Of a DNA stretch of 30,780 nt, positions 2,737 to 30,780 are shown one piece after another (position 1 is the first letter of the stretch; each line of letters opens with the position of its first letter). This DNA comes from a virus, in IMG/VR virus record IMGVR_UViG_3300030012_000635, positions 750-31,529 of that record. One strand, 5' to 3'. The translations under genes were made by a program, and so were the position numbers. The notes beneath the pieces are model-generated. The model did no database searches. It was not told where the DNA came from and saw only the letters and a program-made list of their open reading frames with translations.

Positions 2737-3135
2737 ATGGCAATTAATATAACATCAGCAAAATTTGGAGAAGATACATCTGGTACTAATAATGCCAACT
2801 ATACACCATCCACTAATCCACAAATAGGGGTCAGATATGGAAATAACTATAGAGGGATCACAGTTAATAGGGCTATGGACAATACTGCTTATACTGTTGA
2901 GCGATATGGCAGAAAGAAATCCTTTCAATTAACATATACTTTTTTACCTGAATCAGATAGAGATAAATTAGAAGCATTAGTAGTGTACACTGTTGGTCAA
3001 AAGAAATCTTTTTTCTTTTCACCATCTGGTGCATTTAATGATGACATTCAGGTAAGATTTACACAAAATACATTTGAATTTAACGAAGTAGCACCAAATG
3101 TATATTCCATTACTCTAAATCTAGAGGAAGTTTAA
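2737..3135 (+). CDS. Putative minor tail protein
   Basis: 132 residues starting at ATG 2737, with GGAG about 7 nt upstream overlapping the preceding stop region. The product is beta-rich: a central segment (YGRKKSFQLTYTFLPESDRD) followed by KLEALVVYTVGQKKSFFFSP and a final VYSITLNLEEV strand. The layout resembles small siphophage minor tail proteins of the lambda gpM type, which dock at the tail tip. Its placement as the last gene before the operator region, downstream of the tail-tip gene, agrees. Family assignment is tentative; other beta-sandwich structural proteins would look similar. Confidence 0.5.
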   Translation: MAINITSAKFGEDTSGTNNANYTPSTNPQIGVRYGNNYRGITVNRAMDNTAYTVERYGRKKSFQLTYTFLPESDRDKLEALVVYTVGQKKSFFFSPSGAFNDDIQVRFTQNTFEFNEVAPNVYSITLNLEEV

Positions 3136-3152
3136 ACAGTACACATACTGTT
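3135..3152. promoter_or_regulatory. Operator-like palindrome O1
   Basis: Perfect inverted repeat aacagta-caca-tactgtt, directly after the late-gene stop and about 90 nt upstream of the HTH regulator gene. A second copy matching at 16 of 18 positions lies at 9469-9486 before the terminase genes. It probably binds the HTH protein encoded at 3243. Confidence 0.7.
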
Positions 3153-3218
3153 ATAAATAATAATATAAATATAATTAATAATAATATATTTGCAGAATTG
3201 TAAAGATTCCTTTAAATT
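3151..3218 (+). promoter_or_regulatory. 41-nt pure A/T tract and candidate early promoter
   Basis: Positions 3151-3191 contain only A and T. They run into TTGCAG (3190-3195), 17 nt, then TAAATT (3213-3218), a plausible but weak -35/-10 pair for the early operon. The motif TTGTAAAGATT (3198-3208) lies between the boxes and recurs before the gene at 6941. It sits next to an imperfect inverted repeat TAAAG-attc-CTTTA. Confidence 0.45.
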
Positions 3219-3242: not shown

Positions 3243-3482
3243 ATGAATGTTTTAGAAATAAGAGACTATCTGACATCTAGAGGTCTTAAATATAAATGGT
3301 TGGCTAATCAAATTGGAATTAGTGAATCATATATGTCATTATTAATATCTGGAAAAAGAAACTGGAATCAGAACTTTATAGAAAAAACAGCAGATGTTTT
3401 AGACATACAAACTGATAGACTTTTACAGATGATCAATCAAAATATTATTAATAATAGGGAGAACAATGGGAAATATATTTGA
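3243..3482 (+). CDS. XRE/Cro-CI type HTH transcriptional regulator
   Basis: 79 residues. ATG 3243 is preceded by AGAGGAAC at suitable spacing. Residues 18-39 form a classic helix-turn-helix (KWLANQIGISESYMSLLISG), followed by a C-terminal helix with LDIQTDRLL. The length fits a one-domain Cro-like repressor without a cleavage/dimerisation domain. It is the first gene of the early operon, downstream of O1, so it probably autoregulates and also acts at O2 before terminase as an early/late switch. No integrase is visible, so it need not imply lysogeny. The DNA-binding fold is clear; targets are inferred. Confidence 0.85.
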   Translation: MNVLEIRDYLTSRGLKYKWLANQIGISESYMSLLISGKRNWNQNFIEKTADVLDIQTDRLLQMINQNIINNRENNGKYI

Positions 3483-5317: not shown

Positions 5318-5507
5318 TAAATGGGGTGAAAGTATAGTAGAACTTTCTAGGCAAGGTTTTTTGGATTCTTTCAAATACCCTATCAGTAAATCAGAAGCAT
5401 TACTTAGCAAATTGCAAAAAAAACAAAAATACAATCTTATAAAAAATAAAGATCATCCTATGGGTGATGTTTTAGACAATGAAAATAAGACTATCACAAG
5501 AAGATAA
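5277..5507 (+). CDS. Hypothetical early protein
   Basis: 76 residues. ATG 5277 is preceded by AAAGAGG at good spacing and overlaps the initiator gene by 41 nt; the 3' end overlaps the HNH gene by 29 nt. It begins MQIQINQEQLDLINKWGESI and has a predicted mostly helical body with a basic middle (LLSKLQKKQKYNLIKNK). There are no cysteines, membrane segments or recognisable motifs. Its position suggests a replication accessory role, but no function can be assigned. Confidence 0.6.
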   Translation: MQIQINQEQLDLINKWGESIVELSRQGFLDSFKYPISKSEALLSKLQKKQKYNLIKNKDHPMGDVLDNENKTITRR

Positions 5508-5850
5508 ATTATTTAGTTTATACATCAGGACAAGGGCTAAGGGATATTGTGAACACTGTAAAAAGTATTTTGGAATCAAGAAGCTTCAGGCAAGTCATTT
5601 TATTGGCAGAAGAAATAAAGCTGTAAGGTGGGATGATCAAAATGTATCTGCTTTGTGTTTTAGGTGTCATATGGTAGTGTTTACAGAGAATCCACTAATA
5701 CACACCAACTGGATGAAAAAAAAATTAGGTTTAAGAAATTTTAATAAATTAGTATTAAGAGCTAATAAAATTAAGAAATGGTCTAAAGATGACTTAAAAT
5801 TATTAAGAAAAAAACTTAGGGAGTTAATAAAATTAAGTGAAACCATTTAA
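5479..5850 (+). CDS. HNH/NinG-like recombination nuclease
   Basis: 123 residues, ATG 5479. The metal-binding layout is C24-x2-C27, H40 in ASHFIGR, N55 in QNVSALC, then C60-x2-C63-H64. This CxxC...SHF-x-GR...N...CxxCH order matches the lambda NinG (Rap)/HNH family, which cleaves branched recombination intermediates. The C-terminal half is a basic helical tail. Beside an annealing-type protein and a PD-(D/E)XK-like protein, it likely resolves DNA structures before packaging. A homing HNH endonuclease is less likely, since the gene is coupled into the operon on both sides. Confidence 0.7.
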   Translation: MKIRLSQEDKLFSLYIRTRAKGYCEHCKKYFGIKKLQASHFIGRRNKAVRWDDQNVSALCFRCHMVVFTENPLIHTNWMKKKLGLRNFNKLVLRANKIKKWSKDDLKLLRKKLRELIKLSETI

Positions 5851-6307: not shown

Positions 6308-6497
6308 ATTTGCAGATTCAAAAGAAAAGCTAATCAGGGATACACATTTAAGAGATATTAAAATATCTACTGCATACCAATTTTTAAGACAATATACAGA
6401 TCATAAATATGCTAAGGTAATAGATATATTATCAAAAGAGTTCTTTTTATCAGAACAAGGAATAAAAAACATATTACAAAAAATGAAAGAAAAATAA
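6297..6497 (+). CDS. Small HTH-like protein
   Basis: 66 residues from ATG 6297, overlapping the upstream gene by 11 nt. The segment KYAKVIDILSKEFFLSEQGI (residues 38-57) plus KNILQ reads as a helix-turn-helix in which a short 'FFLSE' turn precedes the recognition helix. This is similar to small HTH proteins of marine phages. It could be a transcriptional or replication accessory factor. No other motif is visible; confidence in the fold is moderate and no function is assigned. Confidence 0.5.
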   Translation: MKFKFADSKEKLIRDTHLRDIKISTAYQFLRQYTDHKYAKVIDILSKEFFLSEQGIKNILQKMKEK

Positions 6498-6499
6498 CA

Positions 6500-6772
6500 A
6501 TGCAAGAAAAAAAATATATAAATGGAATAGTTCTAAAAGAAAAAAAGTTTGATAATGGTGGTTCTATTATAAATTGCTGGATTAAATATGATGACTTTAT
6601 AAAAGAAATAGATTCAATTAAAAAAAATGGATCAGTGAATATTATTATAGCACAAAGAAAAGAACCATCAAGCACTGGTGTAACACATTATGTTTATCAA
6701 GATACATTTGAACCTAAACAGAAGCAAGAGCCAGTACATTATGAAGAAACAGAAGATGATTTACCATTTTAG
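6500..6772 (+). CDS. Small SSB-like protein with acidic C-terminal tip
   Basis: 90 residues, ATG 6500. The body is beta-rich (INGIVLKEKKFDNGGSIINC, then VNIIIAQRKEPSSTGVTHYV), followed by a Lys/Gln/Glu linker and the terminal residues EETEDDLPF. The final DDLPF is nearly the DDDIPF tip with which bacterial SSB recruits partner proteins. An OB-fold domain of about 70 residues is shorter than bacterial SSB but common in phages. It is the last gene of the replication operon and is followed by a terminator-like structure. The role is inferred from the tip and context; the fold should be modelled. Confidence 0.6.
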   Translation: MQEKKYINGIVLKEKKFDNGGSIINCWIKYDDFIKEIDSIKKNGSVNIIIAQRKEPSSTGVTHYVYQDTFEPKQKQEPVHYEETEDDLPF

Positions 6773-6855
6773 GGCTGTTAACTAATTTTAAAACCTAGTA
6801 TGTGGTTTGGAAAAAGTTATATGGTTGGCACACCACAGCCCTTTTTTATTTTTTT
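6771..6855 (+). terminator. Terminator with long structured loop
   Basis: agggctgt (6771-6778, beginning in the stop codon) is perfectly complementary to acagccct (6835-6842) and is followed by a T-rich run to about 6855. The 56-nt loop is long for a simple terminator. It contains gtggt (6802-6806), which could pair with accac (6832-6836) in competition with the outer stem. It ends the replication operon. Confidence 0.6.
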
Positions 6856-6906
6856 GTAAATAAAGCTTGACACTTATAATTTATTATTGTTACCTTTGTA
6901 AAGATT
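6849..6906 (+). promoter_or_regulatory. Divergent relative of the accessory promoters
   Basis: tttttgtaaataaagcTTGACA (-35 at 6867-6872) matches the first part of the three cassettes at 7824, 8438 and 8843. The downstream half differs: no good TATAAT at 18 nt (TACCTT instead), but GTTACCTTTGTAAAGATT at 6889-6906. TTGTAAAGATT also occurs at 3198-3208. This is probably the promoter of the 6941-7472 pair, possibly activator-dependent. Confidence 0.5.
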
Positions 6907-6940
6907 AATTCACTAAAACAAAATACAGAGAGAACAAAAA

Positions 6941-7174
6941 ATGAAAACAAAAATAAAAAAACAATATGTTTTGTGCATTTTACATGAAAATGCAGTTTTA
7001 ACAGATGCTAAACTTGATACATACGGTGTACATTATAAAGCTGATGAAACGTTTACTTTTGAAGTAATTGGTAAATTTCATTCAGAATTAGATGCTTTGC
7101 AGAAACTACAATTAATTGGGCAATCTAATTATGAATATACAATTATTGAAAAATTAAAAGTTGTAGAGGTGTAG
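6941..7174 (+). CDS. Accessory small protein, unknown
   Basis: 77 residues, ATG 6941 with GAGAG upstream. First gene after the terminator and promoter at 6849-6906. It begins MKTKIKKQYVLCILHENAVL and reads as a small alpha/beta domain with four strands and one helix (SELDALQKLQLIG). No recognisable motif. The gene after it starts 1 nt beyond the stop, so the two are co-transcribed. Small size and early position are those expected of host-takeover or counter-defence proteins, but nothing in the sequence proves this. Confidence 0.65.
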   Translation: MKTKIKKQYVLCILHENAVLTDAKLDTYGVHYKADETFTFEVIGKFHSELDALQKLQLIGQSNYEYTIIEKLKVVEV

Positions 7175-7175
7175 A

Positions 7176-7472
7176 ATGATTGATCAAACGCTAGAAAAAA
7201 TATTAGATAGTATTGATGGAAAAAATTGTGATTCTTCTTCTTTTTGGATTGACTGTGAAGATTCTATTAGATATACTTCTGTTAGTGAGTTTTTAGAAGA
7301 TTTAGAATATTATGTACATGGATACAGTGAGTGGAATCATATGAGAAATCCAGATTACATGAAAGAAGAAGAAGATTTAGATGGTAAGCAATACAAAGAG
7401 CTTTTGATTGAGAAGAAAAATATGCAAAACTATCTCAAAAAATTTAAAAAAGCTATGAAAGTAATTTTATAA
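7176..7472 (+). CDS. Accessory acidic protein, unknown
   Basis: 98 residues, ATG 7176 with AGAGGTG upstream, in tandem with the previous gene. It is acidic and aromatic in the N-terminal two thirds (FLEDLEYYVHGYSEWNHMRN), then Lys-rich and helical at the C-terminus. The acidic, tyrosine-rich character would suit a DNA-mimic or protein-binding inhibitor, but that is speculation. No enzyme motif is visible. It is followed by the structured non-coding stretch at 7475-7580. Confidence 0.6.
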   Translation: MIDQTLEKILDSIDGKNCDSSSFWIDCEDSIRYTSVSEFLEDLEYYVHGYSEWNHMRNPDYMKEEEDLDGKQYKELLIEKKNMQNYLKKFKKAMKVIL

Positions 7473-7474
7473 AC

Positions 7475-7580
7475 TTTAAGGCTTGAGCTTAACAAATTGA
7501 TTAAAATCAAAGTGATTATTGATTTTTGAAATGTACATTGTATTAATTTCACAATTAACAATAACTGCTTGAGCCTTAAA
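7475..7580 (+). ncRNA. Candidate structured RNA element
   Basis: tttaaggcttgagc (7475-7488) pairs with gcttgagccttaaa (7567-7580) as a 14-bp stem containing two G-U pairs. Inside the 78-nt loop are two further hairpins, TTGATT-aa-AATCAA and TGAAAT...ATTTCA. It is non-coding, lacks a T-run directly after the stem, and ends about 10 nt before the SD of the next gene. It could be a leader regulator, a processing site or a small RNA. G-U tolerance fits RNA rather than a DNA operator. Confidence 0.4.
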
Positions 7581-7598
7581 AAATTTAAGAGGTAAAAA

Positions 7599-7778
7599 AT
7601 GTTTATACCAATATCAGCAATACTTGTAATGGGAATATTATTTATTGTTATTGCAAATAACAGCAAAAGTAAAATAGATTATTATAGGGTACAATGTGAT
7701 TTATGGCGACAATCAGCTATGGACTTGCAAAGGGAAATAAATGAAAGAAACCATAAGAAGCTAACCCAATTTAGGTAA
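7599..7778 (+). CDS. Small membrane-anchored protein
   Basis: 59 codons from ATG 7599, preceded by AAGAGG, to TAA 7776-7778. Residues 2-20 (FIPISAILVMGILFIVIAN) form one hydrophobic segment followed by a charged cytoplasmic or periplasmic helix (DLQREINERNHKKLTQ). It has the look of a single-pass inner-membrane peptide. Such early phage peptides can act in superinfection exclusion or host membrane alteration, but none is identified here. It is followed by a strong terminator. Confidence 0.6.
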   Translation: MFIPISAILVMGILFIVIANNSKSKIDYYRVQCDLWRQSAMDLQREINERNHKKLTQFR

Positions 7779-7793
7779 ATGTTCTCTCTCCAA

Positions 7794-7828
7794 GCCCCAG
7801 TGAAGAATAGTAGCTGGGGCATCTTTTT
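7794..7828 (+). terminator. Rho-independent terminator
   Basis: GCCCCAG (7794-7800) and CTGGGGC (7814-7820) form a 7-bp GC-rich stem with a 13-nt loop, followed by atcttttt. The T-run merges into promoter cassette A. Confidence 0.85.
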
Positions 7829-7923
7829 AATTATTTTGTAAATAAAACTTGACACATATATAATTCTATGATTATACTTGTTATATGAAATTATTAAACA
7901 AAACAATCGGAGAAGAGAAAATG
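7824..7923 (+). promoter_or_regulatory. Promoter/leader cassette A
   Basis: 100-nt module: T/A block, TTGACA (7849-7854), 18 nt, TATACT (7873-7878), 6 nt, ATG (7885), then GGAGAAGAGAAAATG ending at the gene's ATG 7921-7923. It aligns without gaps to 8438-8537 (87 of 100 identical) and 8843-8942. The first 31 and last 15 bases are identical in all three. Confidence 0.9.
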
Positions 7924-8379
7924 AATTACACAGAATTAACAAATAAAAAAAGAAAAGAATTTGGTAATATTAAAGACTATTTATCATGGTATAATGAAAA
8001 TAGATCAATGCTAACAGAAATGGAAAGAGAAGAAAAGGTAGCCAAGAAAAAAGAAATAAAAGCATTTGCTAACAGAGGTAGCTACACAGATTGTGAACCA
8101 TTTGAGGTTGTAAAAAAAATTAGTGATAAATGTGTAGAAATTAGAATGATGGATTCAAAAGAACTTGACTGGGAAAAAGAATGGGTTGTTGGTGGTTTTT
8201 CTGGAATAATGGTAAATCAAAATGAACAAAAATGGGAAATAACACAAAATAAAAACAGACCAACTTTTAGAATACGTTTTAGCAATCCTAAAAATGGCTA
8301 TACAACATGGAAAGATAAGTATGGTAATCAGTATTCAATGAATGATAGACCTATTAAGTTTTATGATTATAATTTTTAA
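7921..8379 (+). CDS. Accessory protein of cassette A, unknown
   Basis: 152 residues from ATG 7921, chosen because GGAGAAG lies 8 nt upstream. An in-frame ATG 12 codons earlier (7885) coincides with the predicted transcription start and would add MKLLNKTIGEEK. Residues 57-66 read YTDCEPFEVV. They are followed by strands EIRMMDSKELDWEKEWVVGG and FSGIMVNQNEQKWEI, and a C-terminal DRPIKFYDYNF. Proteins with a YTD-x-x-PFEV start, a GGF-x-G-x-x-x-NQ-x-x-Q-W centre and a KFYDYNF end recur in phages and plasmids to my knowledge, without known function. The only larger gene of the island, it is bounded by its own promoter and terminator. Confidence 0.7.
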   Translation: MNYTELTNKKRKEFGNIKDYLSWYNENRSMLTEMEREEKVAKKKEIKAFANRGSYTDCEPFEVVKKISDKCVEIRMMDSKELDWEKEWVVGGFSGIMVNQNEQKWEITQNKNRPTFRIRFSNPKNGYTTWKDKYGNQYSMNDRPIKFYDYNF

Positions 8380-8407
8380 TCATAGATTATAATTATAAAA
8401 ACAATTT

Positions 8408-8431
8408 AGCCCCTTAATTGGGGCTTTTTTG
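8408..8431 (+). terminator. Rho-independent terminator
   Basis: AGCCCC (8408-8413), loop ttaatt, GGGGCT (8420-8425), then a T6 run. It closes the cassette A transcription unit, and cassette B follows at once. Confidence 0.85.
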
Positions 8432-8437
8432 TTTATT

Positions 8438-8537
8438 TTTTTAATTATTTTGTAAATAAAACTTGACACATATATAATTTTATAGCTATAATTATTACAT
8501 GAGATCATTAAAGAAAACATCTGGAGAAGAGAAAATG
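8438..8537 (+). promoter_or_regulatory. Promoter/leader cassette B
   Basis: Same 100-nt module as cassette A, exactly 614 bp downstream with no indel. TTGACA is at 8463-8468, TATAAT at 8487-8492, ATG at the predicted start (8499), and GGAGAAGAGAAAATG ends at 8537. This is a consensus sigma70 promoter apart from its 18-nt spacer. Confidence 0.92.
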
Positions 8538-8834
8538 AAAGTAAAAAAATTAGTAACTAGACTTCAAAAATTAGAAGCAAGTGCAAAAAAATATTATTAT
8601 TCCTTAAAAAGACCACATTTTTCTGATGGGTTTGAAAATAAATATGGCTGGAAAATTAGATCAATCTTAGATGAATTATACTCTAAAGAGCTTTTAGAGG
8701 AATTTAAATTATATGTAAAAGAAAATGATTTAGATTATGACATAAATGTTAGATGGGAAAAGCAGAACATCTGTGGCAAAGAGTTTGATGTCCAAATTGG
8801 AGAACGTACATATTTAGGTGATATAATGGCTTAA
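8535..8834 (+). CDS. Accessory protein of cassette B, unknown
   Basis: 99 residues from ATG 8535 (GGAG 8 nt upstream). A leaderless in-frame start at 8499 would add MRSLKKTSGEEK. The sequence is helical at the N-terminus (KKLVTRLQKLEASAKKYYYS), then has an acidic segment (LYVKENDLDYDINVRWEKQ) and a C-terminal strand pair ending GERTYLGDIMA. No motif is recognised. No GC hairpin follows; the stop is directly followed by the T/A block of cassette C, so read-through into the next gene is likely. Confidence 0.65.
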   Translation: MKVKKLVTRLQKLEASAKKYYYSLKRPHFSDGFENKYGWKIRSILDELYSKELLEEFKLYVKENDLDYDINVRWEKQNICGKEFDVQIGERTYLGDIMA

Positions 8835-8842
8835 TATATATT

Positions 8843-8942
8843 TTTTTAATTATTTTGTAAATAAAACTTGACAAGTATATATAAAAAGCCTTATAATTAC
8901 TACATGAGAACAAACAAAAAACAAACTGGAGAAGAGAAAATG
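8843..8942 (+). promoter_or_regulatory. Promoter/leader cassette C
   Basis: Third collinear 100-nt module (offset 1019 from A). TTGACA is at 8868-8873, TATAAT at 8892-8897, ATG at 8904, and GGAGAAGAGAAAATG ends at 8942. The spacer and leader have diverged most here, while the first 31 and last 15 bases and the in-frame 12-codon spacing are kept. Confidence 0.9.
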
Positions 8943-9134
8943 ACTAGAAAAGAAAAAAATCTAACACAAAAAAATACTGTAGAAGCTTTAGAAATGCTCA
9001 AGAATAAAGTAAATGTTGATAAAATAGAAGATTATCAACATCTTATATTTGGTCTGTTAAAAAGTAGCCCTGAAACTTCAAACGCTTTTTTGAACCTAGT
9101 TAAAGAACTTAAAAATCAAAGGGTGGCTTCATAG
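8940..9134 (+). CDS. Accessory protein of cassette C, unknown
   Basis: 64 residues from ATG 8940 behind the shared SD. The upstream ATG at 8904 would add MRTNKKQTGEEK in frame. The product looks all-helical (NTVEALEMLKNKVNVDKIED, then NAFLNLVKELKNQ) with no cysteines or membrane segment. The next gene begins 23 nt later with the same SD string, so the two are probably one transcript. No function can be assigned. Confidence 0.6.
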   Translation: MTRKEKNLTQKNTVEALEMLKNKVNVDKIEDYQHLIFGLLKSSPETSNAFLNLVKELKNQRVAS

Positions 9135-9157
9135 CCATCCTGATCGGAGAAGAGAAA

Positions 9158-9370
9158 ATGAAATACAAAAATCATACAATAACATTTGATGAGGGTGGTT
9201 TAGTCAAGTTTGATTACACTACAGATGAAACTATAGAAGATTTAAAAGATGATTTAGGTGCTGAGTGGGATGATTGCACACCAGAAGAAAAAAGAGATAT
9301 GGTTTATAATGCTTTTTTAGATAATATAAAACATGATCTTAAATTTTATTTCAAAGATATGGAATTTTAG
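9158..9370 (+). CDS. Accessory acidic protein, unknown
   Basis: 70 residues, ATG 9158. It is preceded by atcGGAGAAGAGAAAATG, which matches the last 18 bases of cassette A exactly, although no promoter precedes it. The SD module alone has apparently been copied. The protein is acidic, with TTDETIEDLKDDLGAEWDDC followed by TPEEKRDMVYNAF and an aromatic end (LKFYFKDMEF). The charge pattern would suit a DNA-mimic or inhibitor, but this is conjecture. It is the last gene before the terminator at 9397. Confidence 0.65.
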   Translation: MKYKNHTITFDEGGLVKFDYTTDETIEDLKDDLGAEWDDCTPEEKRDMVYNAFLDNIKHDLKFYFKDMEF

Positions 9371-9396
9371 AAGATACCCCACTACATACCAACATC

Positions 9397-9428
9397 AAGC
9401 CCTGAGCGTAAAAACTTGGGGCTTTTTG
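9397..9428 (+). terminator. Rho-independent terminator
   Basis: aagccctgag (9397-9406) pairs with cttggggctt (9415-9424), a 10-bp stem with two G-T pairs, loop cgtaaaaa, and a T-run to 9427. It closes the accessory island. Confidence 0.8.
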
Positions 9429-9429
9429 C

Positions 9430-9500
9430 TTTATATATTATTTATATTTATATAATATTTATATTTATAACTGTATACATACTGTTTAATCAGTACACCA
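9430..9500. promoter_or_regulatory. A/T tract and operator O2 before terminase
   Basis: A 41-nt run of A and T only (9430-9470) abuts the palindrome aactgta-taca-tactgtt (9469-9486), 16 of 18 identical to O1. A further half-site cagtacac lies at 9491-9498. Downstream, 9506-9520 carries on the minus strand a TTTGTAAAGGT related to the motif at 3198 and 6896. The rest of the 289-bp gap before TerS holds a -10-like TATAAT at 9600-9605 without a clear -35, suggesting an activated late promoter. Confidence 0.6.
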
Positions 9501-29887: not shown

Positions 29888-30780
29888 TGGCATTATCACA
29901 ACCCCATGCAAACTATACCACAGCTTTAAATAATGCTAGTAGTGCTGGATTAGATGAAGATTATTTAATTATACTTGAATATAAAGATAGTTCTTCTGGT
30001 GGAAAAATAGGGCTAAGTATGGATTATTCTGGCAATATTACAGATGATGAAGATGGTTCTAGTGCCACTGTATCTTTTACCCCTTGCATAACATCTAGCC
30101 CAAGCATAAGAGAAAAAATTGATTTAAAGAACTATTCTAGTTCTATTGGTAATGTAACAGTAAATATTGTAGACATAGAAACTTCTGAAAGTACATTTCC
30201 ATTATCTAATAATAATGGTAGATTTTCTGGTGAATTTCCTAAAAGCAGTGGTGGCAGAGTTTTTATTAATAGTAAAGTTAGGATATTTTCTAAAGTATCA
30301 TCAGATACACAGACTGCAAGATTTTTAAAAGTATTTGAGGGGCGTTTAGGCAGTGTACAAGCTAATTTTATTGCCAAGACAGTATCACTAAAGCTTAATG
30401 CCTATAACCCTTTTAAGGACATTATTTTGCCCCTCACAAGAGATTCTTCTTTAGGCATACCAGCCCCAATATCTTATGGTAACTTTACACCTAACAGCAC
30501 TGGGGGCTATGCAACAAGTGGAAACTTCTTTGAAATGCCAGTACATTCTAATGATGGTGGTTTTTTAACAGCAGTAGCTAGAGATGAAGCTATATCAAGT
30601 GAATCTGTACCCCATATATTTGATGACAGTACAGATAGTTTTATACCTATACATCATATAACCAGTTCAGATACTGGTTTAGCTTCTACAGTAAGTTCAG
30701 ATGGTGTACACAAAACAAAATTTAGCACAGCTTTAATTAGAACAGTAAAATATAAACCTGATTCTATTGATACAGATACT
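29887..30780 (+). CDS. Tail-tip/distal tail protein, 5' part (continues at base 1)
   Basis: ATG 29887 overlaps the tape measure TGA. The frame is open to the window end (298 codons) with no stop. It begins MALSQPHANYTTALNNASSA, then a strand segment (EDYLIILEYKDSSSGGKIGL), SSATVSFTPCITSSPSIREK and IGNVTVNIVDIETSE. From residue 165 onward (30379) it is the same sequence as bases 1-402, with only synonymous changes. The N-terminal region has the beta-sandwich look of siphophage distal tail/hub proteins. The complete gene is rebuilt by joining at 30378/1. Confidence 0.75.
   Translation, partial: MALSQPHANYTTALNNASSAGLDEDYLIILEYKDSSSGGKIGLSMDYSGNITDDEDGSSATVSFTPCITSSPSIREKIDLKNYSSSIGNVTVNIVDIETSESTFPLSNNNGRFSGEFPKSSGGRVFINSKVRIFSKVSSDTQTARFLKVFEGRLGSVQANFIAKTVSLKLNAYNPFKDIILPLTRDSSLGIPAPISYGNFTPNSTGGYATSGNFFEMPVHSNDGGFLTAVARDEAISSESVPHIFDDSTDSFIPIHHITSSDTGLASTVSSDGVHKTKFSTALIRTVKYKPDSIDTDT
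30379..30780. repeat. End repeat, copy 2 (matches 1-402)
   Basis: Ungapped match to 1-402 with 9 substitutions, all synonymous, including a two-base serine change AGT to TCT at bases 307-309. The copies are therefore different alleles of the same locus. Confidence 0.97.

Follow-up and report, generated by a model that had tools for sequence, protein, structure and literature searches.

Three nearly identical modules, each joining a promoter to a start site, lie collinearly ahead of unrelated small genes in an uncultured virus genome, and probably represent sigma70 promoter-terminator cassettes that double as recombination joints. The architecture is repeated, junctions between differing gene contents fall inside the repeated blocks in three pairs of relatives, and unrelated payload genes lie between conserved flanks. 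The window analysed here comprises 30,780 nt out of the 31,529-nt virus record. Its ends (1-402 and 30379-30780) overlap by 402 nt with 393 identical positions (98%), so the genome should be about 30.4 kb long and circular or circularly permuted; slightly different variants were apparently assembled together. The window includes siphovirus-like families of terminase, major head protein and tail tape-measure protein, and its cassettes are located after the region of the NinG-like nuclease and before the gene for the small terminase. No DNA match to the cassette region was found in the phage collection, and a TerL profile search of bacterial and archaeal genomes found nothing. The nearest isolates are remote (TerL identity below 36% to any isolate), too distant for a host to be assigned from them.

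Compared without gaps over 100 nt (7824-7923, 8438-8537 and 8843-8942), modules A and B agree at 87 positions, A and C at 75, and B and C at 80, while the best 100-nt self-match anywhere in Markov-shuffled 30-kb sequences reaches only 54-58. Each module begins with an A/T-rich 31-nt block, identical in all three and ending in TTGACA, followed by an 18-nt spacer, TATAAT (B and C) or TATACT (A), and an A-rich 5'UTR that leads to the start site GGAGAAGAGAAAATG. Direct counts thus confirm both the near-identity and the promoter elements described in the original prediction. The sigma70-like scores of A, B and C (11/12, 12/12 and 12/12) are the top three among the matches listed between 2500 and 15500. 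The upstream block of module A scores 11/14 as a UP element, a value reached by 0.4% of window positions. The original prediction had counted three modules and confined the feature to 7824-8942. All three are real, but a diverged fourth copy at 6841 (module Z) and a fourth start block at 9146, which has no promoter, had been missed, and the whole feature spans about 6800-9430 (Table 1). Module Z is 62% identical to module A, shares the 17-nt core GTAAATAAARCTTGACA, contains the core GTAAATAAAGCTTGACA and lacks a good -10; its start site, GAGAGAAC..ATG, serves the gene at 6941-7174. In addition, a second subtype of the module, in which the -10 reads TACCTT and no ATG follows after 6 nt, occurs at window 6867, L025 879 and 1774, L022 6517 and L135 about 1100, and is possibly a separately regulated promoter class.

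Table 1. Coordinates of the cassette features and neighbouring genes in the window
Feature	Position	Strand	Description
Cro/CI-type regulator	3243-3482		
NinG-like nuclease	5479-5850		
Module Z (diverged further copy)	6841..6943	+	TTGACA 6867-6872; T-rich upstream block; weak TACCTT-type -10
Terminator of gene preceding unit A	7794..7828	+	Hairpin GCCCCAG..CTGGGGC + TTTTT; stretch folds at -15 kcal/mol; identical in L007
Module A	7821..7923	+	UP-like block; TTGACA 7849-7854; 18 nt; TATACT 7873-7878; predicted +1 ATG 7885; SD/start GGAGAAGAGAAAATG 7909-7923
Payload gene A	7921..8379	+	152 aa; family F18; partial homologue in L012 (71% over 76 aa)
Terminator of unit A	8408..8431	+	6-bp stem, 5 GC; T-run
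Module B	8435..8537	+	TTGACA 8463-8468; TATAAT 8487-8492; ATG 8499; SD/start 8523-8537
Payload gene B	8535..8834	+	99 aa
Module C	8840..8942	+	TTGACA 8868-8873; TATAAT 8892-8897; ATG 8904; SD/start 8928-8942; no GC-rich terminator ahead
Payload gene C	8940..9134	+	64 aa; family F19; homologue directly behind a module in L018
Promoter-less hairpin + start-site block	9120..9160	+	Hairpin 9120-9141; GGAGAAGAGAAAATG 9146-9160
Gene D	9158..9370	+	Second cistron of unit C; 70 aa; protein unchanged in L007
Terminator closing the C+D unit	9397..9431	+	Terminator 9397-9424

Across the window and the related viral contigs L007, L015, L018, L022 and L025, a terminator hairpin stands directly ahead of 17 of the 18 modules, the exception being module C of the window. 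The T-run of the terminator that precedes unit A extends into module A. Of the two units predicted to carry their own terminator, unit A does, as does the unit formed by genes C and D; unit B has none. A promoter-less block combining a hairpin with a start site also occurs; in the window its hairpin overlaps the stop of gene C, with a fold of -15.1 kcal/mol (z -4.9). Equivalents are found in L007, L018, L022 and L025.

Genes A, B and C begin at the second ATG of their modules. In consensus-type modules the first ATG follows the -10 after exactly 6 nt (12 of 12), which places it at the predicted +1, and in the same 12 it is in frame with the gene, without a stop, 36 or 39 nt ahead of the gene start. 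For the L018 module at 8090 we used the homology-supported gene start at 8165, which is in frame; the automatic pick was an ATG lying too close. An in-frame, stop-free leader is expected by chance in about 1/10 of cases given leader composition, but given the relatedness of the modules the 12 of 12 is suggestive only. This ATG had been described as an ATG leader; we rejected a separate leader-peptide gene because of the ATG's position at the predicted +1 and the reading frame that it shares with the payload. Most differences between homologous leaders alter the amino acid, and no peptide is conserved. A 5'-terminal AUG in frame might give rise to two forms of each payload: leaderless translation would add an N-terminal tag of 12-13 residues, and initiation at the SD site would not. 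We regard this reading of the sequence as unlikely. If it is true, the tag would matter through its presence and its sequence would be irrelevant, as the leader amino acids are not conserved.

The payload genes A, B and C, which had been predicted to be unrelated, have no detectable similarity to each other. When genes A and B were used to query viral contigs, no further relatives appeared, and no relative of gene B was found. Family F18 (gene A) is the last unit ahead of the terminase in L012, and gene C is 41-42% identical to its L018 homologue (E 3e-15 in a small local database). Families F04 and F19 reappear behind modules in differing orders. Searches of the payload proteins against Pfam and NCBIfam gave nothing above cut-off, PADLOC gave no convincing match, and the sole profile match is a weak one of gene A to phrog_19789, a PHROG of unknown function. 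The proposed host-takeover or anti-defence role therefore found no support in these searches. AlphaFold models of gene A and of the L007 F04 protein are poor (mean pLDDT 51-53). The consensus sigma70 promoters suggest early expression of the units.

The closest comparison comes from two contigs of different metagenomes, L007 (8.6 kb) and L006 (8.4 kb), which are 99.6% identical where compared and match the window at 91-98% identity in the region of the cassettes. Both keep module Z, and both have a single module after the same terminator. The 1,019 bp with units A and B are absent from L007, a difference that may be a gain or a loss. The L007 module is a hybrid: its left arm is that of window A (34/34 nt), where C differs by one base, and its right arm is that of window C (33/33 nt), where A matches at only 19/33. 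The changeover from A-type to C-type sits within a 34-nt block common to A and C, as expected for recombination between the two repeats. Behind this module L007 has F04 in place of the F19 gene of the window (38.5% nucleotide identity, 37.6% when shuffled), with an AGAGAG-type start site resembling those of distant relatives. A hairpin and start block follows, and then gene D, identical to the window at 212/213 positions. Outside 6497-9123, the alignments (roughly 10 kb compared) contain no large gaps.

We also considered whether units of this kind are independent ‘moron’ insertions, entering singly as self-contained units whose promoters resemble each other through a common source. Much as this explanation would have it, L007 lacks unit A, which carries a promoter and a terminator of its own, while the genes on either side are otherwise conserved. 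Unit B, however, lacks a terminator, and the right halves of modules have recombined with different genes, as in the L007 module with F04, so that units are not inherited whole; we consider the explanation quite improbable. The gene sets between blocks differ in related contigs with junctions inside the blocks, in agreement with the idea of cassette exchange in the original prediction, but the modules are not the sole sites of turnover. Two of the four gene-content differences between the window and L007 have no promoter module at their edges (6497/6500 and 7179-7469), and promoter modules thus favour gene turnover but are not required for it. The site at 6497-6500 is a gene-insertion hotspot without a promoter module: the window has no insert there, L007 (812-1534) has a ParB-like gene and L141 (3897-4552) a different insert. 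The gene swap at 7179-7469 is adjoined at its right edge by a 125-nt intergenic stretch (7472-7598) with imperfect inverted repeats, TTTAAGGCTTGAGC ... GCTTGAGCCTTAAA, that is kept in L007.

More distant relatives (L014/L015, L018, L022 and L025; TerL identity 61-63%) carry modules in the same place with slightly altered letters, AATTAATTGTAAATAATAC-TTGACA-N18-TATATT-N6-ATG-AAAGAGAG-ATG. The exact 18-mer TGTAAATAATACTTGACA also occurs in other viral contigs, most of them with only a promoter-like -35 and no further module, and these were left out of the counts. L015 and L018 share a terminator and module on the left (93%) and on the right (86%), while the payloads between these flanks, F24 in L015 and F19 plus F32 in L018, are unrelated (45.6%, shuffled 43.4%). 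At another module of L015, gene F28 lies exactly between two AAAGAAAGAGAG start blocks (12 nt); it is absent from L018, and the next gene is 94% identical. L022 and L025 share 31 identical nt of the module, although upstream DNA (48%, shuffled 45%) and payload (47.3%, shuffled 47.5%) are unrelated, and their hairpin and start blocks are 84% identical with different neighbour genes. The L006/L007 and L014/L015 pairs each come from different metagenomes and keep the same arrangement within the pair. An assembly artefact, in which a mis-joined repeat in a metagenome contig created the array, might be suspected from the exact A-B-C arrangement occurring in one record only. With three copies that differ at many positions and precede separate genes, and comparable arrays in relatives from other metagenomes, some of them seen twice, this is highly improbable.

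Several further elements were observed in these genomes. The 14-bp palindrome ACTGTTTAAACAGT occurs in L015 (6287, 8293 and 9363), in L018 (6391 and 8099) and, with one mismatch, in the window (9481). It lies several times exactly between the -35 and -10 of a module and also upstream of terminase genes, is absent from window modules A-C, and is probably an operator for a phage regulator. An inverted pair of about 55 nt with 80% identity (window 3132-3184 and 9431-9489), recognised via the copies in relatives, comes with half or whole copies of the palindrome; one member is upstream of the Cro/CI-like gene and the other upstream of the terminase genes. In L015 (7706-8250) and L018 (7577-8050), a module is followed by about 500 nt of partly conserved sequence, in L015 with no ORF of at least 40 aa, that is possibly a non-coding RNA unit. 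Rfam gave nothing at gathering score in the window and only sub-threshold matches in the L015 stretch.

Taken as recombination joints, the modules would act as follows. Each would supply a strong promoter of the host sigma70 type, preceded by an A/T-rich, UP-like region, together with an unstructured 5'UTR already equipped with a Shine-Dalgarno start site. It usually lies right behind the terminator of the previous gene, and this adjacency would insulate neighbouring small transcription units from each other. Recurring ahead of different genes, within a genome and in its relatives, the same stretch of roughly 30-100 nt would provide a short homology joint. Recombination between modules, start-site blocks or hairpin and start blocks, by homologous recombination or single-strand annealing, could then delete, insert or exchange the enclosed gene, which would keep its correct expression, and the payloads may act on the host. 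Homologies of this length are usable by phage recombination functions, and the phage has its own NinG-like nuclease.

The modules could be conserved simply through being good promoters. Under this alternative, selection and recent tandem duplication would account for ordinary repeated sigma70 promoters, and non-homologous mosaicism sparing the promoters would leave only apparent breaks. Turnover at window 6497 and 7176, where promoter modules are missing, fits such an account, and selection for function predicts payload junctions at gene edges. The L007 hybrid, however, switches from A to C inside the 34-nt shared block rather than at a gene edge, the block common to L022 and L025 has differing DNA on both sides, and the L015 gene lies exactly between two 12-nt start blocks, all of which makes the account distinctly unlikely. 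A test for general within-genome homogenisation (concerted evolution) was negative (p = 0.29), with only the window trio unusually alike, so ongoing recombination among the modules of one genome is not general.

Functionally, the window cassettes appear to work like promoter early stem-loops (PeSLs), reported by Arbiol et al. in 2010 and Comeau et al. in 2014; homology to PeSLs is not claimed. PeSLs are mobile regulatory cassettes of T4-type phages in which a terminator stem-loop is fused to a host-type promoter, repeated among small ORFans, with shuffling of the enclosed genes (PMC4503421, PMC3950731). Measured against that description, the modules studied here share the terminator stem-loop immediately before the promoter (all but window C), the host sigma70-like promoter (TTGACA-18-TATAAT/TATACT) and the shuffling of genes between cassettes, seen in three pairs of relatives. 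In contrast to the T4-type myovirus genomes, they belong to a siphovirus-like lineage of about 30 kb with no sign of T4 relation, number only about three to four per genome, include the 5'UTR and start site in the block, and coexist with a promoter-less hairpin and start block. Because residence in a T4-type phage is the one tested feature that differs, we do not class them as PeSLs. The haloarchaeal virus HGTV-1 has a conserved promoter-like motif with an inverted repeat before many ORFs, proposed to aid gene shuffling (PMC3950731); that motif is of archaeal TATA type, whereas ours belongs to the bacterial sigma70 type, and comparison of relatives reveals the exchange junctions here. The SAS/ESAS elements of Cluster K mycobacteriophages place a conserved start-codon block before numerous unrelated genes, accompanied in about half of the cases by an inverted repeat, and have been suggested as possible recombination targets, with ESAS repeats thought not to form RNA hairpins (PMC3203893). 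The window GGAGAAGAGAAAATG is likewise a conserved start block ahead of unrelated genes, with one type carrying promoters and the hairpin of the other folding well as RNA. The Cluster K consensus is a G+C-rich 13-mer, and its sequence probably differs from GGAGAAGAGAAAATG. Morons of lambdoid phages are small genes that are inserted between conserved neighbours and bring a promoter and a terminator with them. Unit A has both signals and unit B lacks the terminator, and here the promoter module is common to several units with breakpoints inside it.

These comparisons indicate that promoter-terminator cassettes serving as recombination joints also exist outside the large T4-type phages, since the same arrangement, in another sequence, occurs in a small phage of an unrelated lineage. 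The hybrid module and the gene caught between two start blocks are unusually clean natural examples of the way in which phages acquire ORFan genes that come with their expression signals in place, and the module offers a simple handle for collecting the payload genes of unknown function that lie behind such modules.
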